Below the pieces are notes generated by a model. It was given only the letters and a program-made list of their open reading frames with translations. It searched no databases and had not been told where the DNA came from. From assembly GCA_015499995.1 (NCBI GenBank), contig JADNRV010000235.1:1-64000 (forward strand): a stretch of DNA of 64,000 nt, written 5' to 3'. The translations under genes and the position numbers were made by a program. This document shows, piece by piece, positions 11,668 through 61,490 of this stretch (position 1 is the stretch's first letter; every line of letters starts with the position of its first letter). The DNA is from Flammula alnicola. Its lineage: Eukaryota > Basidiomycota > Agaricomycetes > Agaricales > Strophariaceae.

Positions 11668-12903
11668 ATGGAATCCCAAATCCTCGCTGATGCCCTCGAA
11701 TTTGATGAGCTTCTTACCGAGATATTACACACCCAAGATCAGGAATTCCTTTCACAAGCTGGAAGTCTACGTCCAGGAGGAAAAATAGGTCTCAATGAGC
11801 TGGGTGATGCAGTGTGGTTAGAACAATTTAGGTGAGTTTCACCAAAATATTAGGTTACTGTGGCTTTTTAACACCCGGCTATTAGATTCACACGCGAGGA
11901 GGTACATCAGCTTGCCGATGTGCTTGATCTACCACCCCAGATCGAGTGCATGGAAAACAGGATTTCAGAAGACAGAATAACAGCTCTATGTATGCTGCTC
12001 CGACGTCTTGCATATCCTACTCGCTTGGTGGATGTGGAAATGCAATTTGGATGGGAAAGATCTCGGTTTTCCCGGATTACACACGCAGTGGCCCTCCTCT
12101 TGTGGAAACGATGGAAACATCTGCTTCGTTTTGATCCTACACGTCTCATACCAACCAAACTGGCAGAGTTTGCCCAAATTATCCACGCAAAAGGTGCACC
12201 ACTTGAATTTGTTGCAGGATTTATCGACGGAACACTACAGAAGAACGCACGCCCTATCCGCAATCAACGACTTGTATTCAATGGCTGGAAACGCATGCAT
12301 TGCCTCAAATACCATGCTGTCCTTTCTCCTGATGGTCTTGTCATTCATGTTTATGGACCTGTTGATGGTCGGCGCCATGACGAGACCGTTTACAAGGAGT
12401 CAGGATTGGCTGATCTACTCGACAAACATTTTTGGACACCAGCAGGTGAAGCACTCTATATCTATGGCGATCCAGCATATAATGTTGGTCCCCACATTCT
12501 TTCACCGTACAAAGGTCCTGCCGTCACACCAGAGCAACAGTATTTCAACTCCAGGATGAGCCATGTCCGAGAGCCTGTCGAATGGATCTTCAAAGAAGTC
12601 GCCCAACAATTTACTTTTCTTGACTTCTCCCGTTCCCAAAAAATCCTTCTCACACCATGTGCCCTCTACTACATGATTGCTTTGCTTCTTTGCAATGCCC
12701 ACACCATTCTCCACCATCCCCAAATCCCTCAGTTCTTTTTGTGTGTTCCCCCTACGTTACAGGAGTATTTTACCGGTGAACCAGTCAACGATGCAGAATT
12801 AGATTCATGGTGTATGTCTGCCCCATGGGTAGAGAGTTTGGTGCCCGTTGATGATGACAGCAACAATGAAAACTTAGATAATATGGATAGCGCACAAAAA
12901 TAG
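11668..12903 (+). CDS. PIF/Harbinger transposase (DDE_Tnp_4, HARBI1-like)
   Basis: RNase H-fold transposase that cuts and inserts the element. 393 residues, one 54-bp intron (11832-11885). The start at 11668 (MESQILADALEFDEL) is chosen because splicing joins it in frame to FTREEVHQLADVLDLP. The N-terminal helix-turn-helix region (MQFGWERSRFSRITHAV) is followed by the catalytic domain with D169 in GFIDGT, D250 in YGDPAYNV and E287 in REPVEWIF, plus the Harbinger signature GRRHDETVY and FNSRMSHVR. All three catalytic residues are present and no stop interrupts the frame. It faces the Myb-like gene tail to tail, 18 bp apart. Confidence 0.92.
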
Positions 12904-30267: not shown

Positions 30268-32880
30268 ATGCCAACATATTCCGCTTGGTTTGGAACATCT
30301 GATCCCTCTGTTATGGAGGAGCCTACAGACATTGGTGTGTCTCGACGTTCTCAGAGCATCTATGCTAGGGTACTCCCGAGATCTTTCAACCCTCGGAGAA
30401 TGGAAACATTACCGTTACCATTACACACTGCCCCCAGGCTGAGTGGATCGTCGCCTTCGTCGTCTTCACACCCACGGGAACAACACTCGGTTGAAAGTAA
30501 TTATCCCCGAGGAGATTACGGACCCAACCGCTATTCTACCTGCGAAACGGTTGTAGCTCCCTTGAATTCCCCAACAATCGGTTGTACACCTTCACCACCC
30601 AGTTCAAGTTCAAGCGGGACACACGAAACGATCGATATTCCCACGCGTCCTGATATTTCGAAAGAAATCGATGATCTTATCGGGGTAACCTCGTATGAAT
30701 ACGAGAGATATGAGCGATCGGTTAAAACGTGAGTTAAATTCCTTCAAGTGATATTATACTGCAACCTGAATCGAGCTACGTAACTCCAGAGAGAAATATT
30801 TCTGGGACGGATATGCCATTAACCCACTGGAGGTAGACTTTTCGCGGTACGTCCATCAGTACTGGAGTTAGCGTCGAAAATCCTGGGCAGATGGCTAATT
30901 CATCCTGATTGCAGACCGAAAGCACCTAACCGGTGGAAATATTTTGTCCACCCCGATGGCGGGCTCTACTTTCTTAATGAATCATGGGTACGACACTGCT
31001 TCTGAATCTTAGTAAGAGAGATCCCTGAAATAGTCTTGCAGCCAATACCTATCCTCACTGACATATACGTGTACGAATCCGTTGACAGAAATCGTCTGGA
31101 AGGTTATATCAAAAGTATCTTCCAATATATCAAGAAATACGGGGTGAGGCTACCTTCGGACGATGTATGCCTTGTTCTTGAATTTAGACAATCTGGTCGA
31201 TGCGGATACTATTTCGTCGACCATACAACACGATGTCTCTTTTGGCTAGAAGAATTTGATGCAATGACGTTTTTAGATCACGTCAGAGTACAGTTCACGC
31301 CTTCGCTTGTCGGTGAGTCTTATTTAAGCTTCGCCAATGATGTTGGTTGATTGAATGTTATTCTCGTAGGCCACGAAATGAAATCCTTATATTGGTTCGT
31401 CTAAATATCCAATGAATTCAGCTCGGAAATTGATCGAAATATTCTACGGGCCTGATATTTATAGGTTACACAATGAATACTTTCCTGAGGTTCGACCTTT
31501 CCCCGGTGGCGCTTCGTCGGAGCTCAAAGATATCCTCATTCACGCTGTTGGAGGTCAGGCTTGTCGCTTGAATAGCATACGAATCTACTCTTAAGTTGGA
31601 CTTTAGATTCATTGACATCTCCATCGAATACTGCACCTTATAGCCTGGACGTTCTTGAGAAAATGCTTGCATTAGTAAATGATATTCAGCGTATGTGCAT
31701 CACGTTCGACACCTTTGGTCCGACTCTGACGCTGATTAATCTCTAGATTCAAATGCTTGTGCGGCCGGGTCTGCAACTATCATGTGTGAGGACGATTTCA
31801 TTCTGCCGGATTTTCCGTCGCACTAATTGTTATGCCTTTGAAGACCGATTATTGCATAACTTTTGTAAGAACAGGACCCATAATCTCTCGGAGGCTATTT
31901 TCTCACCAGAAGGTTAGATCACGAGCGACTCCTCCATCTGCACGGAGAAAAAGCCGCCCGCCTTAATATAGATCAGTCAATCCACCCTGAAAGGGAAAGG
32001 ACCCCGATGATTAGAATACTGTCACCCTTTTTGTTGTTCGGACCAGAGGTCCATCTTCGCAAACTGCAAGAAATATCCGTAGACTCCCTTGTCCGTAAAC
32101 ATGACTGGGGCGCAATGTTAGCAGAACTTACGGAAGAGTGGAAGGATATCACACTATATGTAAGTACGGAATTGAACCACTCTCTTTTCTTTCCAGTACT
32201 GATTGTGGCCTCTTACTTAGGCTACAGTCTTGCTGAATGCAAATGTTGCCTTCCTTGCTATACAGAGTGTAGATAGCTCTGCACCACCCGGTGGCCGGTC
32301 CGGCCAACAAAGAGCTAGCTATTTTTCGATAGTGACCGCTATCGGGGCTATCGTTCTCGGACTACTTCTAGTACGACAACATAATACAAGCTTGAATGTT
32401 TGTTGATTTACCATTGCCCTTCCCCAGCGTCTGATGACATTTCTATTTTTAGAGTGCATTCCTTGCAAACCGTAGTGCATCAGTTTTGGGCTTGGAAACT
32501 CTCTCTTTGATGTACAGTTTGCCCTATGCTCTGCTAATGTGGGGGTACGTGGTATATAATTACTTGACTCAGTTCTACCGCTTACTTGACATCCAAATTT
32601 TATTAGAATGGTTTCGTTCCTGGTCGCATTTTCGTTAATGTCCTTCGCCTCCCACGACATTCTTACAATTTGCATGATGTCGCTCACCTGTTTTATCCTC
32701 GGTCTCCTCATATTATGGAATATCTCCGTGTCGTATGAGGATAAACCTTTTTGGTTCCCTTGGATATTACGGAAGTTGGCGCCGAAGCACAAGGAGGGAA
32801 TCCTGGCAGGGAAAGGGAGATTAAGGTCGGAACTCTCTCTCATCTCAGCTACACGTTCCGGAAAATCAGTAGCCTCATAA
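30268..32880 (+). CDS. WT-A: WW-like modules plus multispan membrane protein
   Basis: Founder of the family described here as WT; function unknown. Start at 30268 (MPTYSAWFGTSDPSVMEEP), about 650 residues in about ten exons. Residues 1-155 are Ser/Pro-rich. The first WW-like module is APNRWKYFVHPDGGLYFLN (30926-30986), lacking the second Trp; the second is CGYYFVDHTTRCLFWLEEF (about 31201-31260), which matches strands 2-3 of WW domains. Next come the family motifs HEMKSLYW, LKDILIHAVGG and GEKAARLNIDQSIHPE, then FGPEVHLRKLQEISVDSLV. The C-terminal half has hydrophobic spans VLNANVAFLAIQSV, SYFSIVTAIGAIVLGLLLV, LSLMYSLPYALLMWGMVSF and CMMSLTCFILGLLILWNI, and a basic tail. The most diverged copy and the only one on the plus strand. 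Confidence 0.78.
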
Positions 32881-40357: not shown

Positions 40358-40365
40358 TTTGAGAC
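40358..40365 (+). repeat. 8-bp target duplication of outer hAT element, right
   Basis: TTTGAGAC, exact copy of 37862-37869. Confidence 0.87.
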
Positions 40366-44275: not shown

Positions 44276-46075
44276 CTAAACGACTGAGGCTTCGTCTTTC
44301 TCAGAGTTGAATCTGGGCTTCCAAACGGAGAACGATGGTTTGCGCAGCTGGGTGGGTGACGTGGCGAAATGGACGGAGAGGAGGACGCAAACGATGAGAA
44401 ATGTGAAGAAAGCGGCTTGAGGAAGGTATACGTGGGTCAAAAGAGTCGTAGCCCATTGTAAAAAGAAAGCGAGGAGCGCCCAGAGGAAGAGCGATCTGGG
44501 AAGGGCGAACGCGAACGCAACGCCTTGGAACTTGAGATAGCGAGAGCAAACGACATCGAGATATTCGTGGCCAGAGCTAGCGCCAGATTTGTCGAGCTCC
44601 TCATGGCGGTGGATGAGCAGTGCGGAAATCAAGAGGCTGAGACTAGCCAATGTGGCTGAAGTATATGCCAGCGCGGGTAAAACAGGAAGGAAAAAGCAAA
44701 AAATGTGGAGACTAGACTAGAAGATTAGAATTCTGTCATGGAGCAGATACCGAATGAATTGCTTACGCAAGTAGTCCTGCGGAGCCAATGATGGTTTTTT
44801 GCCAGCCTCCGATGCAATAACTCATGAAAGAGTCCCAATCGCTACCGTAGACAAACTGATCTACAAAAAGCTTGTCCAGCCGCTTGCAATACTTCTCAGA
44901 TATCCCGAGAGTCAAAAACGAGAAGACGGGCTTTGTCCATTGAATTTCTTCAATATCGTCGACGAGGATCGAGGTATCCCGTGAGAGACGGGATTGCTCC
45001 TGTCCATAGTGTGTTTCATATCTATTGTACACTAAGAAAAAGTCAGAATGATAGTGTCTCCATAAAACACCGCCTTAGCTTACTTATTAAGCCCCAAAGT
45101 CGGGCGACAATTGCCACCGTGTGGCCGTCATGAATACGATCTCGTGAAGCTGTGAGGAGATTAAGAAATTTTTCGGTTGCTGTGGCATCGTAAGGGAACG
45201 TCGATAAAGAGGACGTAAGATTATCTGACACCGAGATAGGGTCAGTTAGGACTAAGAATGGTAAGCGATTGGATAAGACTAACCGGCAAGTCCGTGAGAG
45301 AAAACGAGGATGAGGTCGTCAATGCACTTTTGGGGCAAACCGCCAATGTGCATGCAGAAATTTTCGATGTGAGACCAGTATTGGGTCTCCAACAGCAATT
45401 CTATAAGAAAAATCAGACTTTGTTACTCTGATTTGATTTCGAGTCAAACTTACTCAAATGTGAAGGAGAAACTACAGGAAGGAGTCCAAGCTCATCGGTC
45501 TCATCTCGACTGAGCCAGAATACGGTTTGAGTGGCACTATCGGCCAGATAGTAATTGCAATCTTCATCCTCCAATTGCAAGAACAGCTCCATGTCGTTTG
45601 TCAGGGCGAGGCCCTGTTCAGAAGCCTGCTTTTCGACTTCTGCTGCCCAATAGCAGATTTGCTCCGCAAACTCTGGGGCATATAGGTAACACTCTGTGAC
45701 AACGCGCAATCCCGCGTCCCTGTAAAAGTATAGCTTTCCTTCGGGGTGTACGGAAGCGGACCACTGCGGTGGCAGATACGTGGGTCTAAATGAAGCAGCG
45801 GGTTGAACACATGGACAGAGCGCGGACACCAGACATTTGCTCACGAGGCATCTCGAGAGGACGTGAACATTCCTGGCTCTACCATGGTGTTCGCCCGCTG
45901 AACTCTGGAGGAAATTGAGCATCCATTCATTGTAGACAGACTGAAAAACGTACTTGATCTGGACATCGTATCTCCCAGTGGATTGTGGCACGATTGGGCG
46001 AAGGGAACCCGATGGAACTGAAGATTTGGTAGATGATGCTATAACGATTTCGACTTGTTCTGAGTATGTGTCCAT
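44276..46075 (-). CDS. WT-B: diverged WW-like/multispan membrane protein
   Basis: Start at 46075 (MDTYSEQVEIVIASSTKSS), stop at 44276, roughly 440 residues. The first WW-like module is LPPQWSASVHPEGKLYFYR, then VTECYLYAPEFAEQICYW; the second is CNYYLADSATQTVFWLSRD. Following family landmarks: ELLLETQYWSHIENFCMH, KCIDDLILVFSHGLA, EQSRLSRDTSILVDDIEEI and FLTLGISEKYCKRLDKLF where D and E have HLRTLQ..WVD. Membrane spans: ASLSLLISALLIH, FAFALPRSLFLWALLAFFL and AAFFTFLIVCVLLSVHFA. The N-terminal disordered part is much shorter than in D and E. The start codon is 484 bp from that of AP1 on the other strand, so the two likely share a promoter. Function unknown. Confidence 0.74.
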
Positions 46076-46559
46076 GTCAAAAGAGACGAAAGTAAAGGAA
46101 ATCTGAGAAGCGAGGGGAGGTGGGAGTGTCACTTCTTTGGCTGAGACTTATAAGTAGTTGCGTGAAGGCCAACAACCTTCCAAATGGCAATAAGGCTGTC
46201 CCGTGACAATCGCGTGACATTCTATTATATTTTGGCGTTACTACGCACCGCTTGGTCACACAGCCTCAGGCCAGTGTATGTAGGCTTTGCAAACTCATCT
46301 GCGAGCGGAAGCCTTTTCTGCGGAACAGGCAATGCTTTGTCCAGAGGATGTCCTTTCACCCAGACACTAGGCTGTTGATGCCAACCTCAAGCTCTCGCAT
46401 TGGTTACTGGACTGCTCGGGGCCCGGCCCAGCTTTCCACCAAGTTCCACGAGGCTCAAGGTCACGTTCAGGTATGGTGTTATCCGACCAAGAATCGGAGT
46501 AGAAACGCATAAACGCATAAGTGGGATCTATCGATTACCGACTTCGAGCATTCGTTATC

Positions 46560-47201
46560 ATGTCCGATCCTACAGAAAATACGAATGAGGAGACTCTACT
46601 TGGGTGAGTAATTACATGTCAAGAGCAAACGTGATCAATGATATTGCTATTCACTAGAGCGCCTAGCAGTGCAGAGAATAAAGTTGTTGCCAATTTGGAA
46701 CATGGTGAGCGTGGGCGCACAATGTAGGTTTATCACATTAAAGTGTTGGCCCCCGCAGAGAGCAGTGACTTTCAGGGTTCTGGGGCCAGTCCAACGGAGG
46801 AGACGGTCAAAGACGGCCCTCAAGTTGCATCCTCAGAGCCCGTGGTGGCTGGTATAGAAACCTCAAGTTTGGACGACCCTATCACAGCTGAAGGTTCCAA
46901 TCCTAGTACGCTGACAGTCATCACAATTAAATTTTATATGAACTAATATGCCCTGACTTTTTCCCTTGTTAGACGCCGACTCGGGTGACGGTGGCGAAGA
47001 TAATGACTTTGAGGACGGTGATGAGGAAGAAGAAGAGGATGAACAAGATTCAGATGATGACTTTCCACGATTCGAGGAGTAGGTCTATTTTTTTCCCGTG
47101 TTCGCCGATTCCCTAATATCATTTTCTTCAGCAGACCTCGAGGGCGTATAGTTGGTCCTGTATCAGGACAGAGACCTCCGCCGAAACCTAAACCCAAATA
47201 A
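46560..47201 (+). CDS. AP1: small acidic protein with basic PRG tail
   Basis: Member of the family called AP here; no known homologue recognised. Start at 46560 (MSDPTENTNEETLLG), about 136 residues in five exons. The N-terminal two thirds are Ser/Thr/Glu-rich, then an acidic stretch (ADSGDGGEDNDFEDGDEEE, then EDEQDSDDDFPRFE). A phase-2 intron follows and the last exon encodes the basic tail RPRGRIVGPVSGQRPPPKP. The acidic exon begins in phase 1, as in AP2-AP4. No signal peptide or membrane span, so probably cytosolic or nuclear. Divergent from WT-B. Confidence 0.72.
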
Positions 47202-49165
47202 TTTTCCCTTCTAACAGTCTCCACCAGAATGTAACCCTCTTTCTGGCTGCGTCTCCAATAGAAGACTTGCGCTGTCAAACGAAAATCCTTGTCACTACCT
47301 GTATTAGGTTCCTCGAAGCACCACTCCGAGAACAACAAATTTAAAGAATGTCATCGGACTACACCCATTCAGAACTAACCGGTTCCAAGAAAGGCGCTGC
47401 GCGAGAAGATACGTAGACCCGACCGTCAACAACGAAGATTTAACAATCCGCGAGTCCGTGTACTCTCCGTGCTCTAGTCCGACACGTCATTGACAAGTTC
47501 GTGCCGTCGGACACCTCTCGAGCGGCCTACCCGCAAGCAATGATCCGGGCATAAATAAGGTTTTGGGAAGTTTCAATGCAAGTTGTACACAGCCCTTGCT
47601 CTCGCGTGGACCCTGCGGTGTGTTATATTAGCCATTCCGCTGGTAGCTCCGGCGACTGACGTATTGGCTTTTTAGTAAAGGTCGGCGCCCACAGCTCTCC
47701 GTACTTGTCCGCTTTTAGAAGAAAACTTGAGTGTCAATGATTGACATTTCTGCCCACCGCTCGGTAGCGCGAATCAAGCGCTGATTACCTAGTTCGTCGG
47801 TCGAATCGGTGTCCCAATGACTTGTCTACCCTTCACGCTATCCATCAGCACGGCCTTTACGCTTTTTTTGACAGTCAAATCATGTAATCCCGCATCACTG
47901 ACCTCGCATGCTTGCATCGCAACTGTGTCTTAGGGAGTCAGATGAGCCATTGCCGTGGCAGTACTCCCTGGTTGAGGCGGCGAGGCAAGTGTCGAATATA
48001 AAGATATCACTTGCTATCCCATTTTAATGGATATCCCGCAATGACCCCTCGGAACATGTTACTGATGGTGTTAAGTATCACTGTCAGTTGAGCTACGCGC
48101 ACACGCGCACAGCACAAAAACCGGTATGTCGGCATTTTGCTGTATCTTCTTGATCAAGTATATCGTTAACATGCTATTCAATCCGACAACGAACAGACAA
48201 CGACGTAAGTTATCATTACGTTTGCCGTACACCGCCCGTTCGCGTTCTCCACTCACTTCCCTCCAACTTGAAGCGCCCTGTGTACCTGTCGACGACCAGC
48301 CAGGATATACTTAATCAATGGCAATGTGCACACTGCTCCAGCAGTACTGCCTGCCAGCAGATCACGACAGGTATGACTTCGATCAATCAATATAGCTAAG
48401 TAGCCAAGTCATGTACTTACGCCTAGTTCATAGATGAAATCATTTAAGTGAGATGCCAATTCTGACTGTACAGGCTTCACAGACACCAACTAAAGGCTAT
48501 ACTTGGCAAGATTCTACACCATGTATTGATTGGCCAATGTTGATTCCACGCCACGTTTAGTCTTATTTGAAGGCACTAGGATAGTCCCAAATTATCGACA
48601 CCGGTTTCCCATGTAGCTGGTGCTCACATGCGCTCACAATTCAATTCATAGAAGATGGCGTGCTTACATGGCGTAAATACCTCCTTGGAGGACGCCCGAG
48701 CCCCAGGCTATTTTTGGTCGAGGTATAGCTGTATATGGGTACTTCAGTCTGGGAGCTCAGCAGGAAAAGGCTCGCCTTTCGCATCATATGTCATTGTGGT
48801 CTTTGGGAGGACTAAGGAACATTCCCGAGGCTTCTAATATCTGGTAAATCCCTCAGCTGATCTCGTTATTTTCTTATCAGCCGCTTGTGCTGTCTTAATT
48901 CAACTTTAATTGACCCAGCAATTGTTCATCTTAACGGCACCCTATTTTTATCTCAGGTGTGCGGGCGTCTATACGAGGGTATACAGCAACAGCCCCACTC
49001 AATATAGCATTTGTGGGCCGTGCATTTGTAACACTTGAGGCTGAAGGAGGGGTATAAGAATGCCGAGAAGGGTTATAAGGCCTGCACCCACAATTCAAGC
49101 TTGTTACATCCCATTCACGCACACACTCACTCACCACTACTCGCCCATACGCACCACCATACTAG
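47202..49165. other. about 2 kb without a supported gene
   Basis: Between AP1 and AP2, both plus strand. Short frames only (for example 48126-48314); I saw no remnant of WT or AP genes, no TIRs and no RNA gene. The ATG-proximal 120 bp before AP2 should hold its promoter. Confidence 0.4.
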
Positions 49166-49594
49166 ATGGCTAGCAAAATATCCGAAGCTATCGTATCCAA
49201 AGTCAAGTCAGTGTCTATTTCCAGCTTTCCTCGTATGTTGTGATTCATGAATCCATTTCATCTTTTCACACATTCACCGGGCGCCTTATACAGGAGCGTT
49301 GTTGCTCCATTCCAGCTAGGTTTAGGCACCGAGCCCCTCCAACCATCCGGAGGAAGGTAAAAATCATACCAAGTTTCCCCGTATGCGGCTTTATTGATCA
49401 AATTATTGCTCTGAATAGTGCAACAGATCCTGCAAGTACGGAGCCTGAAGTTCCTACGTATGCTTATTGTTGGTATTCGTCAAAAAGCAGCAGCGATTTT
49501 GACTTTTCTCTCTAGGTATCGCCCTCGAGGCCCTCCTAAGAAACCTACGCAGGGAACTAAACCCGTGAAACCGCGTCCAGGAAACGGAAATTAG
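49166..49594 (+). CDS. AP2: minimal member of the acidic/PRG-tail family
   Basis: About 58 residues by the splicing that fits the family: exon 1 MASKISEAIVSKVK, a short second exon SVVAPFQL, a phase-1 junction into DPASTEPEVPT, then the conserved phase-2 intron and the tail YRPRGPPKKPTQGTKPVKP ending GNGN. The acidic run is almost lost. The second-exon donor (GTTTAG at about 49320) is weak; another choice near 49356 breaks the frame. Recognised as family only from exon phases and the PRG tail, so it could be decaying. Confidence 0.5.
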
Positions 49595-50260
49595 TTCTAT
49601 TTCGTCAAACCAGAGTGCCTGCAGAGTTAACCGTCTGGAAGAATAATTGAATGATCTTTGCTGGAATACTCGATCGTCGAGTTGGACTATGACCTGCAAT
49701 TGCAAATAGACTGTCGGGCACAATCTTTGGAAAATAAATCTGCCGAAGACGATGTAATGTTACTCTATCACAGCAGTTCGAATAAGAGACGTGATAATAT
49801 ATATCGTCCACGACAACACACTGGACTGTTTTCGAAATGCTAAAGAATCGCATACCAATGCGGTTAACTTAGTGCCGGAAGATCCAACTTGAAATAAATG
49901 AAAATGAGCCTTCAATGCTTCAGGAGACTTGATGTGGCCTGGAGGGTGTGAGTTATACTAGTTCCTTTGACGCAGGCCGTCTGTATTGAATTGGGATAGA
50001 ATTAAGATTAAATACCATGATGACTATTAGATGATGGTGCTTTATATTGTCAGCCAAACATCTAAAGTCTTCAGAACTGGTTCCTGTTCTTTCAGGGAAA
50101 GCTTCTGACTAAACGGCCGAGACCTTCTCATCCGACATCTCAAATTGTGGCTTCGTTCAGAAAAAGGTAGGTAGCCTCCAAAGTTTGCCAATTATTGTAG
50201 CTTTGGGCTTTTGTAAAGCTCGACGCCGCTGTTTTGGTTAGCGTGTCGTCCCACTGATAT

Positions 50261-51130
50261 CTACCCGAAAAAGTGGAGGAAAACTCCTGCAGAGATTGTC
50301 GGTTCCGACGCACGGTTTCTCTGGCTCGAATCATTGTCGTTGGGATCAGGTTTAGGTTCGAAACTTGATTTGTCGACCTCTCCTTTCACGACAAAGTACT
50401 TGTTCCAGGCACACCATGCAACTGGATGGAGACGATGGCGCACAAAGACATGACCAGCACTCGGGTTGAAACGTCAGATCCTTGGAAGCACATGAAGCAA
50501 AAAGCGACAAGAAAGGACACCATACTGCAATTTATTACTTCTGAATATGCAAAAAGCTTGGAACCACATACCCCCACATCAGGGAAATGTAGGGCAAGCT
50601 GTAGGATGCGACGATCGTGGCAGTTATTCATGAATAGTACCTGAGACATTGTTGGATTAGGTGAATTAAGGCTAAAGTTTTGGAGCATGTACGAACCACG
50701 CCACATCGCGGTTCTGCCGGACTAAAAGCAGACAGAGGACGATGCTTCCAATACTGAAAACAATCGAAACATAGCTGGAAATCTGCGCAGGCGATTGGAG
50801 GTCGACGGTCGGGATGGCGAGTAATGCGACGTTGGCGTTTAGCATTACTGTCGCCTAGATGGGAGGAAAGCATCATTCACATAGCTTGTGATCGAATGAA
50901 ATAGATACGAGCAAAATCAGTTGCTGCCAGTCTTCCTTTGTTTTCTTCATCGACTGGCCCCAAATCCATTCCTGCAATATGCGGCCCACCCACATTCTTT
51001 GCAATATTTTTTCAAGCATGTCTGACGTCCGTCTATCTTTCTCGTAGACCTTCGGACAGTATGGTCGTATGTTCCCTGGAATTTTCCGGATCTAGTCGAG
51101 AAGATAGATTGACAGGTTTTCCTATCGTGC
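50261..51130 (-). pseudogene. WT-C: decayed WW-like/multispan membrane gene
   Basis: Pieces align in order with WT-D/E: LEKILQRMWVGRILQEWIW and QSMKKTKEDWQQLILL (about 50900-51020), MLNANVALLAIPTVDLQSP, ISSYVSIVFSIGSIVLCLL (about 50730-50845), SYSLPYISLMWG (about 50580), then MVSFLVAFCFMCFQGSDVS with VLVMSLCAIVS. The last span loses frame near 50400: the hydrophobic WCAW continuation lies in another frame. The HPxLGLE segment, both WW-like modules and the N-terminus are missing. No start codon fits, so it is a truncated pseudogene. Confidence 0.75.
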
Positions 51131-51914
51131 CTTGTTTATTTCTTCACCAGCGACAGCTTGAGTTCAATGTAGACCACAGCAGCACCAACTTCTCCACGAA
51201 TGTCGCGAATACATCCTGTATGAGGGGCATTTTGAGGATCGAGAGCAGAAGTCTATAAATTGCAATGATTCGTTTCCGTATATGTAAGGCCATTACGGGC
51301 TAGTCAGGGTGAAAGAATGGGGCATCTGGAGGAATCCATGTGTGCCCGGAGGAGTTCCGCCTCCAGAATTGTGGCATAGAGGGTTGGCAAAGTGCTGAGG
51401 CGAGCAAAGCTGCATATGTCTGTCAGGAAATGTCCGCAAACTTTAACTGATATCGACCTACCATCGTCTGGGATGAGTTATTAGAGCTTTAATCCTTCAC
51501 AAAGTATGGACTGAGAGTCGAGCATTTCTGGCGGCGTACGGTTCCGAGTCGTGTGAAACGGTTGCAGGACTAGCGGGCCGATTCTGCCGTCTCTGAGCTT
51601 GAGCGCTTCATCCAGCGATCAGAAAATTTGATAGGATTGCGGAATCAGGCTAGGATATTGATTGGCGAAAAAAATCTGTCCATTTCTTTGAAATCTCTCT
51701 TTTTCTCTCCCTTTTCCTTCCTTTTCCCTTCTTTTTCCTCTTTCGGATACCCAGTAGTATGGTGGGAGAACCATCCAGCGCGGGTATTGTTTGAAATATT
51801 TACCATCTCATTCACACAACAAGAAGGAAATATAAAAGACTTCTTATCAGTCTTACTATGTAACATCTGAATCAAGTACCAGTGTCGGCAATTTAGTATA
51901 CTACATTCAAAGTT
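51131..51914. other. no gene seen, possible decayed remnant
   Basis: Between the WT-C fragments and the 3' end of WT-D. Could once have held the 5' part of WT-C, but I could not align any WW-like module here. A pyrimidine-rich stretch runs from about 51685 to 51745. Confidence 0.4.
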
Positions 51915-54726
51915 TCAAACAACAGTTGTCTTCTGCGAGTCATACAAATATCGTCGTATTTTGAGGAGTGCAGAAAATTTCCAACGGCCGTCAGAGAGTT
52001 CAGCCTTTTCCTCTTTCTCTTCTGAATTTTGCCAACTTTCGTCATCAGACCCATGAGAGTATTTACTCTCGCTGTAGCCTCCGCCTTTCCCCCATGATGT
52101 ATACACCCACCAAGAGAGAAACACAATTGGAATACATGAAGATCCAACAATGATACGTTGCGATCCGCTTGAATTTTGGAAGCAAACGAAGCAGAAGGCT
52201 GCGAGGAAGAAGGCCACACTATGATAAGCAAGGCAGTTGATTAGCTGGCTGAATAGAGCAATAGGAGATTCTATCACATACCCCCACAGAAGGAGCGCGT
52301 AGGGCAAACCATATAGAATAGCCAAAGTTTCTAGGCCGAGCCGAGGATGAACTCGATTTGATAAGTATTGTTGCTGTAGAAGGTCAATTATGTCAATGTG
52401 AGAGCAAGCATCGAACATGAGTACTAACCACATCGCCCGCATCTCTCAATGGCCGACTAGTCTGCTTTACTAGCAGCAATCCGAGTACAATGCTTCCAAC
52501 ATAAGCAGCGATAGATAAATAGCAGGAGATTTGCGCTGGCACTCTATCGGAACCTTGATTGATATTAAGGCTTTGGATTGCCAAAAACCCAATATTGGCA
52601 TTCAACATTACTGAACCCTGGATGAATTAGAAACACAATGAGGTCAGAAGGAGGTACTCAATGATGCTCACTAAGAGAATATATCCTTTCCATTCTGTGG
52701 CCAGTCTCTTAAATAGTTGTTCCCATTCAGGTTTGTAAGCCACTTGATCCACCCACAATTGCTGCAGCGTCTTCAAATGGATATCCGGTGCCAAAAAAAG
52801 CAGAATGGAAAGCGACTTAAAGACCCAAGTGCGTCGTTCATTGGCGGGGCCATACACTGATTGGTCACGAGATAGACGGGCGTGTGCCTCTCCAGCATAG
52901 TTCCAGAATTTCGAGGAAGCTAAGATTGGATGTTAGTTATTTGCAGCTTCATAAGTAATGCGGGAATTGTTCGTCGCACCGAAGATATACATGACTCGTG
53001 CTGATACTAAATATTAGCGTCGAGGTTGAAGAAAGGCACAGGGTATATGTTTACCAATGAGACTCATGGCACCAACACAATTGCTATGGACACTCTCTAT
53101 ACAATTCAAGTTGACGATCACAAACTCGGAAAGCTGGGGATACAGATAACTCACTTTCTAGGCTGGTCGTCAAATCCAAGATCTTATACAAGTCTTTCAA
53201 CACGTATGGAGAGGTTGAGGCTGATGGTGATGTTAAGCCCTCTGCAAAGATGGTCAATATATATGATAAAGCTGAGAGACAAAGAAAAATATTCTACCTC
53301 CAACAAAGTGAAGAACAACGTCTCTCAGCTCTTCAACCAGCGACAACGACACAGCCAAGGAGTGTGGATATAGATTAAGATGGTACCTATAGAAATGGGA
53401 AAGGTATTTTAGTGATGCAGCACGGAACGAGATGCGACATGATCTACCAGTATTGTGCTTCAACGTGGTGTCCTGCCCGGGGTGCCACGCATTAGGAGAG
53501 ATAGATAACTTAGAGGTTGAATAAATAACTTACGAAGACGTCCAGGAGTATCAATGCACAAGTCATGAGCGTCATAGGTATCGAGAAAAAAGACGGCCCT
53601 AGCTTGATGATTTACGTAGTAGTAATTCCTCTGAATATCACCATCCTTGAGATACCATAGATTGTAAACAAGCTCAGCGCCTTCGGGAAGAGCAATCCCG
53701 TTCTCTAAAACGAAGTCCGCGATCATACCTAGATCCTCTATCGCTTGGTCGAGAACTTTGGCACTATAGACATCAGCATCGGTATAGACCCTCTAATGGA
53801 TGCATTGTAAGAGTCAAATTACTTGCGAGGAAAATTCTATGCCCCGGCTAACCTGTGCTTTGTGGTAGAAGTAACGCCCGCCTTCGGGATGAACATATTC
53901 TGACCACCCTTGCGGAGGAGTTGGCCTTCGGAGACACGTAGTCATTATCAGTACTAGATAATTAACCATGAACTGCGACCGAACTCACTGAACCAGAGGC
54001 GAAGTAAGAATTTCGACCACGTCAGTATTTGTGCCAGTGCTGAGCTTACTGTTTAAAGACAAATTATTAAACAAAGCGGGATGAATTGAGGCAAATTTAC
54101 GATTCTTACTAAGATCTGCTTTGTGGGTCATAACGTTGAGTGCCGTCAGGCATCATTGGTTTAATGCGAGAATATGCAAAGTAACAAGGGATCTGTGAAC
54201 TCTGAGGTTCCTCCGTGACGACGTAGCCTTCTTCGATTTCCAAACCAGCGGACTGTTCAGAGCCAATGTGCTGCAAAGGCGGATCATCAAAAGTAATGGA
54301 GAGGTGATTCACAGATCCCGATGGACTTGAATTGCAATGCGACGAGATTGCCCAGGAATCAGTATGAAACCCTTGAGATAGTGGGTATACGGAGTATGCA
54401 ACGCCTTCGAGAGGGACAATTTCGCCGTCCTGGGTTGCTTTATAAGGTGTCGCCGGGCCCCCAGAGAGGGTCGAGTGAGATGAATACTTGTCGTCATTTA
54501 TTGCGGAGCCTATCATGGCCGATGGTCTTTCGGGTTTCGATGCCTTCAGAGACGAAGGGGCATGTTTGTTGAGCAAAGATGCTTGGAGGGGAGACCAAGA
54601 AAATGCCAGTCGCTGGAGAAGTTTCGCAACCGCCTTCGTTAACAGTGACAAGGGTCGCTTCAACAGTGCTAAAGCAATCGTTCGACAAGCCATAAACACA
54701 TGTCGTAGCTGCCGAATCGCAGCCAT
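51915..54726 (-). CDS. WT-D: WW-like modules plus multispan membrane protein
   Basis: About 700 residues in ten or more exons. Start at 54726 (MAAIRQLRHVFMACRTIAL) chosen by alignment with WT-E; an ATG at 54864 in the same frame is possible. The amphipathic N-terminus (LLTKAVAKLLQRLAF) resembles that of E; a disordered region with the shared motif VPLEGVAYSVYPLS follows. Module 1 is PPQGWSEYVHPEGGRYFYH then RVYTDADVYSAKVLDQ; module 2 is NYYYVNHQARAVFFLDTYD. Then VEAQYW, LYPHSLAVSLSLVEELRDV, VVLHFVGG, HLKTLQQLWVDQVAYKPEW. Membrane spans: VMLNANIGFLAIQSL, ISCYLSIAAYVGSIVLGLL, LETLAILYGLPYALLLWG, VAFFLAAFCFVCFQNSSGS and IPIVFLSWWVYTSW. Charged tail. Complete; unknown function. Confidence 0.8.
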
Positions 54727-55462
54727 GGCCAGACAAAGAATTAGCCTTAGACCAAAGAAAATGGGATAGTCAGAAAGGGAATTGTTGTTCGCGACTATTT
54801 GAGGGAAACATAATCTTCTCAAGTCGAAGCACAGTTGAGGCGTGTTGTTGCCCCTCGGAGTCATAAAACCGAGAATAGGAGTTCTTTGGCGTATCTGAGC
54901 CTGGAAGACTGCGCGAAGTTGATGTACGGAGAGTTAGCAGGACGTGGGATGGCCGCTCATGACCATGAGGAGGGTCTCGTGAGATAACGGGGAATTGACC
55001 CTATTTCCTTTAGGCACGGTTGTTGCTCGCAGAAATTGTCCTGGCGTTAGATTGGCATTCGTTGGCATATTTGGGTCGAAGGCAGTGTGCATCGAACGCG
55101 CAAAACAGCCCCGTACCCTAACTGTATAATAAAAACTTTTTCCCAGTACAGGCATACCTGGACAGGGTGGAAAATTACGCACGATGTCTAGTCCTTGTAT
55201 GCGGTTTCTGCGTCATCATTACGCGAATCCCGGGTTACAGTCAAAGCCCTGGATAAATGTGATAATACAATAGATGGTGTCGTTTCCAGATCGATAAGTT
55301 AAACACTAGATAATACAGAAGAGTGGTATACGCGTCTCCACACCTGTGGACGAGGGTATATGTTTCCTTCCCTATCCATTACATTCGTTACATTGGTCGT
55401 GCCGGTCGTTGTCGTGGTACATTTGTCGCTGTACATTTTCCCTTCAAAATAAGAGTGCTCCA
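54727..55462. other. intergenic (or 5' part of WT-D)
   Basis: About 740 bp between WT-D and the 3' end of WT-E, both minus strand. The frame from WT-D continues upstream to an ATG at 54864; beyond that nothing is supported. Confidence 0.45.
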
Positions 55463-58400
55463 TCAAACCGCTGTCTGCCCGGAGTCATATGACCCTCGAC
55501 GAATGCTCAGAATGACAGGCAAGTTCCAAAGTCTGTTGAGAAGTGTATGCTTGGCTTGTTCTTTCTCGTCTGGTTCTTGCGAGGCTACAGCTTCAGACTC
55601 TTCTAGTTGTTCTAGTTGATCCTCGTAAGCCAGGCGGCGGTCGTCTTCGTCTTGATCGTGCTTCTTCTCCCATGAAGTGTAAATACACCAGACGATGAGG
55701 ACGGCAACCGCGGCACACAGCGATCCAACGAGACTGCGACTCCCAGTGTTTGAGCCTTGGAAACACACAAAGCAGAAGGCGGCGATGAAGGCGACCGTCC
55801 TGTTGTCAGGAAATGAAATGAATCATTCGAGCCGACAGGAGGGAAACGAGGAACACATACCCCCACATGAGCAGAGCGTATGGTAGACTGTATAATATAG
55901 CTAGCGTCTCCAAACCCAGATGAGGGTGGCTTCGCTCACGCAAGAATTGTTGCTAAGGTCCGTGATTCAGTGCTGCATCACCCAGACACTGAGAAATATC
56001 CACGTACCACGTCATCAGCGGTTTCTCGGCTTTTGGTCCGATTTTGTCTCATTAAGAGCAAGCCCAGGATAATGCTGCCGGTGTCGGCGAACACTGAGAG
56101 GTAACTCGCTATTTGTGCGGGTGATCTGTAGTTCGGATTCAAGTGGGTGTCGACACTTTGAATGGCCAAGAATCCCACGTTGGACGTCAACATAACGGTA
56201 GCCTACATATAAAGAAGATTTCAAACCGGGAAAAGTACAAGACTCCAAAAAGGATACTCACGAAGAAAATGAATTCCTGCCACTCGTCGTTCATCTTTTT
56301 CATTGACTGCATCCAAACCGAATGGTGCATGATCCCATCCACCCACATCTTTTGCAAGGTTCGCAGATGAACGTCTGGAGCCGAGAAAAGGACAAAGGAA
56401 ATGGTCTTGATGAGCCAGGTTCGTCGATTGAGAGGGTCACCGAAGACCGAAAAATCACGCTCTATGCGCGCGAACGATTCTCCATGGAAGTTGAGAAACC
56501 TCGAATGATCTGCACAAAAATGAATAAGCACATATAAGAATACGACGCAAGAACTGGACCTACAGAAGACGTACATCTGTCGCGCTAGCATGATAGTGTT
56601 AGCAGCTTCGCTTACACGAATCCCAGAGTTCTACTTACCGAAAAGGCTCATAGATCCAACACAGTCCGGTCCGACATTTTCTGAATGGAAATGAGCCATC
56701 TGAGAACACTTGAAAGGAACACCAAAATCTCACTTTCCAACTCGCCCGTCAATCCCAGAATTTTGAATAAGTCGTCCAGAGTATAGGATGCAGTCGAAAA
56801 TGGTGACGTCATGGTATCTATAGAGAAATTTTAAGAAGCGAGAAAAGTACAGACACCATAACAATCATACCTCCAATAAAATGGAGAAGGATATCTCTTA
56901 ACTCGGAAACCATACTAGTGGATAACTCTAAACTGGAGGGGTACAACTGGACAAAGTACCTTGACGAACAGATACTGTAAATGTTCGGAGCAATTGCAAA
57001 GTAGAGAGAGATCCCTCACCAGTATTGAGCTTGGATTTCATATCCTATACAAAAAGGCTCGTCAGTTAAGGAAACCTTCTTCAGGATAAGAGCTACCAAG
57101 ATGCAGGTCAGTTTTTGCGCCTTTGACCTCCCAGGTCGAGCCCATATCTGAAGTATCGAAGGTGTCCAAGAAGAAAATGGCCCGCTCGTCATGGTCGACA
57201 TAATAGTAAGTGCACTCGAAACCACCCGAGTCCTTCTTGTAACCAACATCGATCATACGTACCCAGTTATCGGGAAGGGATTTGCCTATTGGGATGCTGT
57301 TCTCAAGTCTTTCGATAACATCCACCATTTGTTCAAGAATCGAGGGATCGTAGATATCAGCATCCGTATAAACCTTCTAAGAGACAGATAATAGTTGAGT
57401 AGCGACTCGTTCTAGAGAACTGCAAGTAGACCTTTTCCGGGTGATAGAAGTAACGAGCCCCTTCAGGGTGAGCGTATCTGATCCAACCGGGGGGTGGCAC
57501 AGGTCTACCGACAATAGCCGTCAGGTAACGAAAACACTGGATTAGACAGAATAAAACGTACTTGTTGAAGACTGAAGTTAACGGTTCGATATACTTGTAA
57601 GTGTATTGTTTTCGTCTAAATAAAAATATAGTTAATAACAATCTAAAACAATTTGCTAGGATAATTATCTCACATTTTGGTCCGTCGTTCATACCGTTTA
57701 GTCTGTTCCGGCACCACAGGCGTAATGCCACTGTCTTCATTGATCGAGGATTGACCTGAAGGAAGGGGAATGACCTCCGCAGTAATGTTGCTCAAAGAAT
57801 TGCCTTCGACGGTTTCTTCGGTTATGCGCTGGTTGTACGATTGTGGTGACGAGGCTCTGGAAGCTAATGGAATGTGAAGGCTCGTTTGACTGATATGTCC
57901 GGGAGAATTGACTTCGATTGGAGAGGTAACTTCAATAACGGGTGATGGAGAACGACGATGAGAGCGAGGAGGAGAGCGATGTCGTGATGGATGTACATCG
58001 TATGGGTGAAGAAGGTCTGGCGCTGAAGTGGAGTATTGGCGACGTGGTCTAAAGTGGACAGGACGGTGGCGGGTAGGATGAAATGCATCCAGTTCAAATG
58101 TCGAACCGGCGGCTGAGTGAGAATAGTTGGATTCTGGATGGCGCGTTGACCGTGATGCATTACGACTGTGAATCGAGAGATTCTGCCCTGATCTTATTGA
58201 GGAACGTGAAGTGTTGCGAATTCCGCCAGACGAGAATGGGTAAAGGGAAGGCAACACTCCTTCGAGAGAAATAGTGTCGCCGGTTCGTGTGATGGTGTAC
58301 GCCACAGAGCTTTGTTGGGTGTCTAACTGGGATGCCTGCTCCTTCAAATCTTCCTTGACTTGGGGTTCTTCCTTTGAGCTTGTCGGTTGACCCCCCTGCG

Positions 58401-58587
58401 ACGATGACGGTGGTCTTTCGATTCTTTTCCCCCCGAATCTCAATCTTGAGCGGAAAATAGACGCCAAAAAGGCCAATCGTCGAAGAATCCTTCCAAGCGC
58501 CTGTTGTATAAGGCCTGGCTTCATAATCCGCGACAGGAGCCTGCGAATACCAAGGAGGAGTTGCGAGAGCAGCGAGGCTGTAGACAT
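55463..58587 (-). CDS. WT-E: largest WW-like/multispan membrane protein
   Basis: About 800 residues. Start at 58587 (MSTASLLSQLLLGIRRLLS); an upstream in-frame TTG is rejected. Amphipathic helix (IQQALGRILRRLAFLASIF), then a long Ser/Arg/Pro-rich disordered part with ISLEGVLPSLYPFSS, which parallels WT-D. Module 1 is PPPGWIRYAHPEGARYFYH with KVYTDADIYDPSILEQ; module 2 is CTYYYVDHDERAIFFLDTF. Then YEIQAQYW, MVSELRDILLHFIGG, FLNFHGESFARIERDF and HLRTLQKMWVDGIMHHSVW. Spans: VMLTSNVGFLAIQSV, IASYLSVFADTGSIILGLL, LETLAILYSLPYALLMWG, VAFIAAFCFVCFQGSNTGS and VGSLCAAVAVLIVWCIYTSW. The tail is acidic then basic. Closest to WT-D and WT-C. Unknown function. Confidence 0.82.
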
Positions 58588-59877
58588 GTCGAAGGCAACC
58601 AATGCTCAAGACACAGCGCGGGGGACTGCAGCGAAAAGGGTGTGGCGCTGTGCAGAAATATTGAGGGTATTGGCATAAGAGTATTTTTTGACAGCTTCTC
58701 GGGGCTGTGGTAAAAGTCCTCAAGGCCTCATGGCCGTAGCCGGGCCGCCTTATTAACCCCGTAGACATCTCGAGGGCAGGCCCATAGACGACTCGATCCG
58801 TACTTATCCAATCTGTATCTGTAAATGGCTCAGTTCAGTTAAAGTAAAACATGCTCACCTTTCCTTTTAGAAGTTTTCAAGTGCTCAACGCGGGTCATCT
58901 CGAAATTGAGAGCTGAGAGTCGTGCCAAGGAGTCAGGAGTTGTGGCTGAGTTCAAAGCTGTTCAGTGTTGACCCATCATGAGGCACGTGATAGACGCTTC
59001 ACGACCACTCAGACGCCTGTTCCGTACTGGGCGCTTGGCGCCAACTTGAAGGGACTTCAATGGGGACTACTTTCAAAACTTAATTGTTTATTGTGAAAAT
59101 TTTATCATGATGGAATTGTGTTGTAGGCTTTGCAATTGGTTTACATACACCTCTACTGTACTTAGTACTAATATCTTAGTATATACTTAGGCTTCAACTC
59201 GAAATAGAAAATTATTATGGAGCTCAGTATGCAGAGATAGACGTTAGTGTAACTGTGGTTCACAGACTACAGTGACGCTGCAGGACAGAATCGTAAGAGC
59301 TAAAATATAAATAAGTAGATGGTGACCAGTAGATGGTACAGCCTAGTATTTTTATACCCTATGCATTCGCAGGTATAAATCCAGCATCTTGTAGCTTGCA
59401 GATGTAATATAGTCTGTCTCCCCCCCAGTCCCTCGTCCCATTATTTAGAATGGTCATAAGCTAACTTCCTGCAGATAACAGTGTTACATGCATATTCCGG
59501 TCAAAAAGACGAAGACTAGACGAGCGAGTTCATTAATTGTCAAAGTAAAGTATTATATGGCACTGGTACAGATGTGCATCATTGCAGTGTTGCAGCGTGC
59601 CTTCGAACATTGATCATCCTTCAATAAGTACCTGTCAAGCGAGGTGCCGTTTTCCCATCCCACGCATCTTTAGGCGCCCAATTGGGGTCACGTTTCCTAT
59701 CATTTAAAAGCCTCCAGAACCTCCGGACAAGGTCTCATTAAACCATCACCACCTGAGAATACCGAACATCTCTTCTCACTTATTATTGCTCTGAGGTATA
59801 GTAGTCTTGCCACGGTTCCTCCTCACGCTAGCTAGGTCGAACTGACTCCAACTCTGCAGAAAAAGACACCTGATAGA
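58588..59877. other. divergent intergenic region (WT-E / AP3)
   Basis: 1.3 kb between divergent start codons, therefore two promoters. Its right end holds the block shared with the AP4 promoter (listed separately). A TTTAAA stretch at 59703-59708 may be the core element for AP3. Otherwise nothing recognised. Confidence 0.5.
59658..59698 (+). promoter_or_regulatory. conserved upstream block of AP3
   Basis: Contains TCCCACGCAT, GGCGCC and ATTGGGGTCACGTTTCCT in this order, 180 bp before the AP3 start codon. The same three parts in the same order precede AP4 (60845-60888). ATTGG is the CCAAT-box complement and GTCACG contains a CACG core, so these are plausible factor sites. Confidence 0.6.
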
Positions 59878-60512
59878 ATGCCTATCGATAACATGCCGAC
59901 GAATGACATAGTCGCCCGCTCCGATATCATCGTCGACCAAGAGTCTCTGAAGGAAGGAAACCAGACAACCACAATCTCGGCCACAATGACAAGCGTGGAA
60001 ACCTCCATTGTCAATGGCATTGGTCGAGACGCTGAGTTCCATGTCACCACTACGCATGTGGCGAGTGTGACCGTGGCGATACCAGGTCCGTGTGCTTATC
60101 TGTCTTCCTTGAGCGGTAACTGGACTGACTCATCATATCGTAGCCACATTAGCCAAATCCGAAGAGGAAGACGATGACGACGATTCAGATGAAGGCGACT
60201 CAGAGGAGGACAGTGAGAGTAGCGAAAGCGAAGAAGAAATACCCCAGTGGAAAGGGTATGTTTCTGCCCAAGTTTCCCCTTTGCGCTTACTTGACCTGGG
60301 TTTGACATCTACCATCCAGCGGTCTTCCCCGTGCCCAGTTAAAGAGTGGAGTCAGTGGAAACAAATCCAAAGACCCAAAGGCCACAAGGAAGGACTCGAA
60401 ATCTGCAGATGCGGACTCTTCAAAGACCAAAGTATCTAAGTCGAAGGAGTCAAAGCCGAAGGAGTCTGGGTCCAAGGTGGAGAAGCCAGCGGTGGGGTCG
60501 TCCAAGTCTTAG
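59878..60512 (+). CDS. AP3: small acidic protein with basic GLPRAQ tail
   Basis: About 169 residues in three exons, start at 59878 (MPIDNMPTNDIVARSDIIV). The first 70 residues are Thr/Ser/Val-rich. After a phase-1 intron comes the acidic exon (LAKSEEEDDDDDSDEGDSE, SESSESEEEIPQWKG) ending with Trp-Lys-Gly, then a phase-2 intron and the tail GLPRAQLKSGVSGNKSK, continuing as a Lys/Ser-rich region with repeats of KSKESKPKES. The WxGGLPRAQ junction is shared with AP4. No secretion signal. Highly charged, probably disordered, nuclear or nucleic-acid-binding at a guess. Confidence 0.74.
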
Positions 60513-60844
60513 AGGCATGGGTTATTTACCAGTCGTGACCGGGATTAATGACGCCTGGGCCTGCCCATTCGATACCCTTGTAACTTGTTCTCGAGCTGTC
60601 CAATTTTCTCATAGTTCATTCATTGCCTTTTAATTCCGAACGGAAACAAGGAATCGTAAGCACAGCTCTCTCACTAGCAGCATAGATTCCCCGAGTAGAA
60701 GTCTCTGCGATCTAAAGATACCAGAGGAAGATTAGACACGCCTCGCCTTAGGCCTATGATCACGGAACACCATGCGAAGTTCCGCGTGGCTGGGTGGGAC
60801 TTGCCTAGCCAAAGAGCGAACTTTGACATGTTAAGGAACGGCGA

Positions 60845-60888
60845 TCCCACGCATTGATCCTCGGGCGCCTAGCATTGGTCACGTTCCT
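60845..60888 (+). promoter_or_regulatory. conserved upstream block of AP4
   Basis: TCCCACGCAT, GGGCGCCT and ATTGGTCACGTTCCT, matching the AP3 block. A TATAAA at 60907-60912 follows, 117 bp before the AP4 start codon. Confidence 0.6.
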
Positions 60889-61028
60889 GAATAGGCGCAG
60901 ACAAAGTATAAAGACCGGAAAGGGGGAATAAAGTGAAGCCCCATCGCTCCACATTACCACCGTCATTGCCATTCGAAGACAACTCCAAGCAGCACTTCCT
61001 ACTTGATCTGCTCCGCCAGAAATTCGCC

Positions 61029-61490
61029 ATGAACACATCTCTCAAGGACGGCACCTCAAAGGAGGAGACCAAGCCTACGTCGGGCTCTGCAACGACGATG
61101 ACTAAAGAGGCTGCAGCGGCCACCGGTGTTGGAAATAAACAAACTGCCGGTAAGATCCCTTTCGATAATGCTATCATCAGTTTTGGTTGAGTCCTCGAAT
61201 AGCAGCAGTCCGTGATGATAGCACGCGCAAGGAGGCTACCAAGAACCATGAACCCGAGGTCGACGAGGAAGAGGAAGGGGACGGCGAGGACGAGGACGAG
61301 GATGAGGACGAGGAAGAGGATGATGGCGATGAGGAGGAGGAAGAGGAGGATGTCGATGCACCTAAGTGGGAAGGGTACGTTTTCACATCTTCATGCCTTC
61401 TTGACACGAATTTCTTACACGTTGTTCAGGGGTTTGCCTCGTGCTCAAGTTAAGCGCCCCGTCGTTGGACCCAAGCCCATAAAACGATAA
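61029..61490 (+). CDS. AP4: small acidic protein with basic GLPRAQ tail
   Basis: About 116 residues in three exons, start at 61029 (MNTSLKDGTSKEETKPTSG); an in-frame GTG at 60933 is rejected. Phase-1 intron into AVRDDSTRKEATKNHEPEV, then about 40 residues almost wholly Glu and Asp (61254-61350) closing in DAPKWEG, a phase-2 intron, and the basic tail GLPRAQVKRPVVGPKPIKR. Tandem neighbour of AP3, with matching exon phases, junction motif and promoter block, so a local duplicate. No membrane span or signal peptide. Confidence 0.76.

Follow-up and report, generated by a model that had tools for sequence, protein, structure and literature searches.

A cluster in Flammula alnicola that interleaves genes for WW-like membrane proteins with a small family of candidate ligand genes

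We analysed 64,000 bases of the basidiomycete Flammula alnicola (the window), the first part of the 73,206-base contig JADNRV010000235.1 (C152 below) of a 74.4-Mb assembly in 861 contigs, and found a block in which genes of two families, WT and AP, alternate. WT genes encode proteins with two WW-like modules and a membrane domain. We tentatively read the locus as a tandem birth-and-death cluster of an Agaricomycete-wide WT family, interleaved with a small AP family whose products would be ligands of the second WW-like module (WW2), and we hold this reading with somewhat less than even confidence. A preliminary description of this DNA had claimed that the two families are interleaved, in the order WT-B (−), AP1 (+), AP2 (+), WT-C (−), WT-D (−), WT-E (−), AP3 (+) and AP4 (+); our gene models agree on the interleaving and on every position and strand. 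They also bear out the two head-to-head pairs noted there, with the starts of WT-B and AP1 485 bp apart and those of WT-E and AP3 1,291 bp apart. Spliced models came from a small gene finder based on dynamic programming, supplemented by manual work, several small exons and last exons being placed manually by comparing WT-A, WT-D and WT-E.

Contig C756 aligns to most of the second half of the window at 94–98% identity, and Flammula alnicola proteins are named there; we therefore take it to be the sister haplotype of the dikaryon, and its comparison with C152 serves as a strain comparison within one genome. Four copies in the block had been described as WT genes. Open models were obtained for WT-B (44276..46075, −; 490 amino acids (aa), 7 exons), the most divergent copy, for WT-D (51915..54726, −; 701 aa, 13 exons; NCBI allele P0033) and for WT-E (55463..58587, −; 817 aa, 13 exons; allele P0001, 93% identical), whereas WT-C (approximately 50386..51022, −) is a degenerate relic of the membrane part: in both haplotypes it consists of membrane-part pieces with shifting frames and stops, and no WW piece matched it. 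A further gene, WT-A (30268..32880, +; 634 aa, 13 exons), lies outside the block, beyond the gene for the COPI alpha subunit (COPA). WT-A, WT-B and WT-D project onto C756 with no stop and no splice site lost, the A and B alleles being intact, and WT-E projects without a stop and with one GC-AG intron. The NCBI proteins for the D and E copies of C756 match our models except in splice details. WT-A, WT-D and WT-E have all 12 intron positions in common, with equal phases, an agreement that is partly circular because some of the exons were set by comparing these three genes.

AlphaFold2 models of family members from Pholiota and Pleurotus (predicted local distance difference test scores of 86.6 and 85.2) both contain a pair of WW-like, three-stranded sheets separated by a helix, together with a helical region and a set of four long helices, in line with the earlier claim of two WW-like modules plus a multispan membrane domain. 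We conclude from the sequences and these models that a WT protein is laid out as a disordered N-terminus, a WW-like tandem, a helical region, four predicted membrane helices and a short tail that in most members ends in Val. In WT-E, the core of module 1 (WW1; PPGW...HPEGARYFYH) is encoded by an exon at 57432..57504 (−), the linker helix and WW2 (YYYVDH...FF) by an exon at 57097..57376 (−), and transmembrane helices TM1 to TM4, with a predicted cytosolic tail ending in Thr-Ala-Val, by exons at 55463..56509 (−). The predicted outer loops are short, at about 13 and 3 residues, which would place most of the protein on the other side of the membrane; we take that side to be cytosolic because the TM2–TM3 loop is basic.

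The two modules differ in what they retain of a WW domain. WW1 superposes on solved WW domains, among them Nedd4L WW3 over 29 columns with a root-mean-square deviation of 1.7; in an alignment of 119 members it keeps the first (fold) Trp in 116 of 117, and has Ala or Ser at the expected ligand Trp site in 94 of 117. WW2 has Tyr129 in 118/119, Tyr130 in 113/119 and His134 in 112/119, followed seven residues past the His by Trp (60) or Phe (55) in 118 members, and its first Trp is not conserved. The Tyr and His of the β2–β3 hairpin that belong to the ligand groove are thus present in WW2 only. No module carries both signature Trp residues; with equivalence taken from the WW consensus, the two are divided between WW1 and WW2. 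The Pfam WW profile (PF00397) scored WT-E at 15.2, WT-B at 12.7 and P0033 at 18.6 bits, all under the cut-off of 26.9, and matched 38 of 64 members at E ≤10 (best 3.2e-5). When this profile was run against the whole Flammula genome it recovered ordinary WW genes but none of the WT genes, as these low scores would lead one to expect.

All four AP genes lie on the plus strand. AP1 (46560..47201; 132 aa, 5 exons) has an acidic tract, FPRF, PRG and a proline/lysine tail; AP3 (59878..60512; 160 aa, 3 exons) an acidic tract, IPQWKGGLPRAQLK and a K/S-rich tail; and AP4 (61029..61490; 116 aa, 3 exons) an acidic tract, APKWEGGLPRAQVK and a short basic tail. The AP1 allele is intact, as is that of AP4, with in-frame length changes, and the NCBI allele of AP3 (P0121) is spliced differently at the first intron. 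AP2 (49166..49594) is a weak model: its last exon, with VPTY-RPRG and a basic tail, is common to both haplotypes, and its N-terminus is uncertain because the donor of the first intron is not conserved in the sister haplotype. The earlier portrayal of AP proteins as small, acidic and then basic fits AP1, AP3 and AP4 but not AP2, which has 5 D/E and 17 K/R residues in 95 aa and no acidic tract.

AP3 and AP4 have in common the string W-(K/E)-G-G-L-P-R-A-Q-(L/V)-K, spanning a phase-2 intron, and none of 5000 shuffles reached their similarity score. We conclude that, on sequence similarity, these two are certainly related. AP1 and AP2 probably belong to the same family: shuffle p values for their membership ranged from 0.003 to 0.09 (uncorrected), and the last phase-2 intron is also present in both. 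In AP1, AP3 and AP4 the acidic exon is preceded by a phase-1 intron and followed by a phase-2 intron. Beside the last intron, every AP has a hydrophobic-P-x-aromatic motif (FPRF, VPTY, IPQW, APKW), which in AP2 the intron splits. Alternatively, AP proteins might be nuclear acidic chaperone-like or regulatory proteins that act on chromatin and not on WT. Such a role would suit AP1, AP3 and AP4, which combine acidic tracts with K-rich tails, and AP4 gave a sub-threshold match to prothymosin (E 0.14); that match is far below the cut-off, and a nuclear role would leave the conserved aromatic motif and the common last intron unexplained. We consider this alternative unlikely.

We infer specifically that AP proteins are WW2 ligands. 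WT would sit in a membrane with its WW modules and tail facing the cytosol, and would have a peptide groove in WW2 only, where the Tyr-Tyr, His and aromatic residues stand at the usual spacing, WW1 being structural. The WW2 groove would bind the hydrophobic-P-x-aromatic motif of the presumably disordered AP proteins, which WT would thereby bring to the membrane, and the acidic tract and basic tail of AP might then serve to draw in or shield further partners. Because the genes for ligand and receptor are linked, matched pairs would stay together through duplications. Two points reported in PMC6744271 bear on such a groove: the His is described as necessary for the motif's Tyr, and KIBRA WW2, with Ile at the usual β3 Trp site, accepts motifs that depart from Ψ-P-x-Y. 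If AP proteins are WT ligands, the cluster would encode a linked intracellular ligand–receptor system in which groove and peptide are predicted at residue level.

We examined how the copies have moved and decayed. The stretch with WT-E and AP3 (55418..60862) has a copy at C212:26080-31277, 72–88% identical, in which the two genes are again head to head and which lies inside a repeat. The flanks of this copy adjoin without the block at C312:215,814-216,281 and C212:4,101-4,527. Since the block sits in a repeat whose empty form exists elsewhere, the pair was copied and inserted as one unit, with boundaries close to the two genes. The earlier proposal that the families expanded together therefore holds for this one event. 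In a whole-genome search the WT-E core gave at least 59 exon matches, which were confined to C152, C756 and C212. C756 carries a second E, the frame of which is broken by two stops in projection, one of them seen in the whole-genome matches as well, and a WT relic of exon 1 only, with an in-frame stop, occurs at C212:126.4-127.1 kb, some 98 kb away from the copied E-AP3 pair, and at C655:14,323-15,001; no AP was found within the 2 kb read around it. We conclude, from comparing the contigs, that WT copies are being gained, lost and left to decay between haplotypes. The region between WT-E and AP3 (58588..59877) also holds, in the sister haplotype, a transposon-like insert of about 8.7 kb (C756:127770-136430); it has inverted ends, TAAGGTCTAACATGG, and a direct repeat of 8 bases, GGCCATAG. 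We would class it as a hAT-type transposon, but four of its open reading frames (ORFs) had no match in Pfam.

These events invite a different explanation, in which the functions of WT and AP are unrelated and their interleaving is solely the outcome of segmental duplications and transposons. Such hitchhiking would account for the C212 copy forming one block within a repeat, as well as for the differences between haplotypes (the extra E, the 8.7-kb insert and other indels), the exon-1 relic without a nearby AP, and the finding of AP in the Flammula alnicola genome alone when WT is widespread. Set against this, the copied block has its ends near WT-E and AP3, and genome-wide searches with AP1, AP3 and AP4 (AP2 was not searched) placed AP solely at the main cluster and in the C212 pair, the two WT loci, with only weak low-complexity matches elsewhere. 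We regard hitchhiking as almost as likely as the ligand reading.

When 183 kb was scanned for P-x-aromatic downstream of an acidic tract, only AP1, AP3, AP4, their alleles and the C212 copy came up, the genes from which the motif was derived. The AP-tail pattern proved unspecific, with 16 genome matches against 17 for a reversed control; 5 of the 16 were AP3, AP4, their alleles and the C212 copy. Protein searches with the full AP alignment, in which 7989 candidates were scored, were swamped by acidic words and returned the family's own P0121 and three unrelated-looking acidic proteins (E 0.3–0.9), and a tail-only alignment search, with 2 candidates, returned only P0121. Of the four AP genes on C756, AP3 alone came back in protein searches; absence of AP from other species is therefore weak evidence, because annotation misses such genes.

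Selection was gauged from ratios of nonsynonymous to synonymous substitution (dN/dS), with a simple binomial test of neutrality from which gapped codons were dropped. Allelic dN/dS was 0.13 for WT-A, 0.04 for WT-B, 0.26 for WT-D and 0.28 for WT-E, and neutrality was rejected in the purifying direction for all four pairs (p 1e-9 to 7e-5). For the AP alleles dN/dS was 0.29 in AP1 (4 differences), 0.11 in AP2 (4), 0.56 in AP3 (3) and 0.85 in AP4 (23); between AP3 and its C212 copy it was 0.32 (p 0.0009). We conclude that purifying selection, as judged from these substitution patterns, acts on the WT genes and on AP3. Allelic dS of WT-E (0.10) is about twice that of WT-A, WT-B and WT-D (0.02–0.05), and this higher divergence may reflect gene conversion or exchange between paralogues.

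The preliminary description had also raised a role in self/non-self (incompatibility) recognition. The strain comparison proposed there shows, in the two haplotypes, a difference in copy number (the extra E), and this, together with the higher dS of the E alleles, is what recognition genes might display. The same comparison gave no sign of diversifying selection in WT, every allelic ratio lying below 1 with neutrality rejected toward constraint; the predicted outer loops are short, and no recognised incompatibility domain was found in Pfam. We find a recognition role barely credible.

Database searches returned 378 WT relatives at E ≤0.001, and the suggestion that WT is a lineage-specific, unknown family does not survive them. 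Among the 120 matches listed, all named ones are from Agaricomycetes (Agaricales, Polyporales and one Boletales), with identity across the WT core of up to 66% outside Flammula. In Coprinopsis cinerea the WT relative is CC1G_07674. Fifteen of the 21 species with at least two rows among these 120 have two on contigs of equal size, hence probably on the same contig, and consecutive locus tags occur in Agrocybe chaxingu (g928/g929) and Psilocybe cf. subviscida (008038/008039 and 007314/007315). In a quick tree of 123 rows, the branching follows the lineages of the fungi and many duplications are recent, at the level of single species; WT-D groups with Pholiota molesta, apart from WT-E, so the D/E split would be older than Flammula, and WT-A and WT-B sit on long branches of unsure placement. 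A literature search found no paper describing the WT family, and no Pfam or NCBIfam family was found for a WW tandem with a four-helix membrane domain. With its modular architecture and its presence in many Agaricomycetes, the WT family is well suited to functional study.

Weaker matches to WT were also recorded. Among 64 members, Pfam gave RseC_MucC in 24, Yip1 in 12 and SLATT_5 in 6, none a clear assignment; SLATT_5, a 2TM effector family, was sub-threshold in those 6, with a best E of 0.0012. A viral fold library gave nothing at E 0.001, and sequence searches of the PDB gave nothing beyond chance matches and weak ones to WW domains (best E 0.09). As a separate observation, 93 of the 120 listed relatives end in Val, and 54 of the 120 end in [ST]-x-[VIL], against 3% expected by composition, the rows being related and so not independent cases. 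Ends of this type act as PDZ ligands or as signals for exit from the endoplasmic reticulum.

Several observations weigh against reading AP as the WW2 ligand of a co-inherited pair. PPxY occurs in none of the AP proteins and an exact Ψ-P-x-Y only in AP2 (VPTY), the loose motif pattern is found also in WT-B, WT-D and WT-E and three times in AP2, and in WT-B the WW2 His is replaced by Ser. WT-A and WT-D have no AP neighbour, and WT is widespread in species where AP was not found, so that WT can do without AP unless annotation missed it there. Joint movement of WT and AP amounts to one duplication event, the insert in the sister haplotype breaks the head-to-head linkage of WT-E and AP3, and the alleles of AP1 (p 0.22, with 4 differences) and AP4 (p 0.55) are compatible with neutrality.

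The block had been described as free of housekeeping genes. Pfam matched 0 of 10 further ORFs inside it, and searches with 20 of the 80 ORFs of at least 120 aa listed outside it place housekeeping genes on its flanks: pieces of COPA at 33.9–36.9 kb, weak XPG/5'-3' exonuclease matches at 41.4–42.5 kb, a PCI/Rpn3 gene at 63.1–63.7 kb and, directly beyond the end of the window, a ribophorin II gene. Among the housekeeping genes lies a DNA transposon gene, a 343-aa open frame (11872-12900, +) that matches a DDE transposase (PF13359, E 2.3e-23). About 2.5 kb at 37870-40358 is present in the window haplotype and missing from C756, and its longest ORF has no Pfam match.

The membrane domain suggests a further alternative, that WT proteins form oligomeric Orai-like pores or channels in which TM1 lines the pore, the WW tandem in the cytosol acts as control module and AP is a ligand or modulator. 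WT resembles Orai (CRAC) channels in the order and packing of its four predicted membrane helices and in a long first helix that is highly conserved in WT; the TM1 region is polar and among the most conserved stretches. Unlike Orai, WT has neither the filter Glu nor a basic TM1 extension, and has an added WW tandem and helical region. The filter position, in a register taken from the first aligned residues, is Ile in 113/119 and the next is Gln in 98/119, and where the basic extension would be expected there is Glu328 (109/119), Gln330 (92/118) and Glu331 (92/118). The Orai profile (PF07856) gave no match in the genome at E 1, exon by exon, and was not among the families listed for WT-E, WT-B and P0033; among the remaining 63 members the check extended to 25 of 61 families. 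We judge a pore improbable. A fuller version, in which WT proteins are new Orai-like four-helix pores of mushroom-forming fungi controlled by the cytosolic WW tandem, and fast-changing, disordered AP peptides dock on WW2 through their hydrophobic-P-x-aromatic motif to open, close or cluster the pore, with linked pairs co-inherited, strikes us as highly improbable. If the membrane part is a pore, fungi would gain a peptide-controlled channel family.

Compared with other known proteins, the match to NINJ1, which has two membrane helices, covers only part of the WT membrane domain (model 314-442; E-value 3.9). Agaricomycete proteins annotated as 'WW domain-containing protein' belong to the same family as WT, the annotations being names only. 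Further parallels are the tandem WW proteins KIBRA, MAGI, SAV1 and ITCH. Unlike them, WT has its tandem fused to a four-helix membrane domain, its diagnostic Trp residues split between the modules and, where seen, scores under the cut-off; like them, it has two adjacent WW-like folds joined by a helix-bearing linker and, as with KIBRA WW2, one of its two modules lacks the usual β3 Trp.

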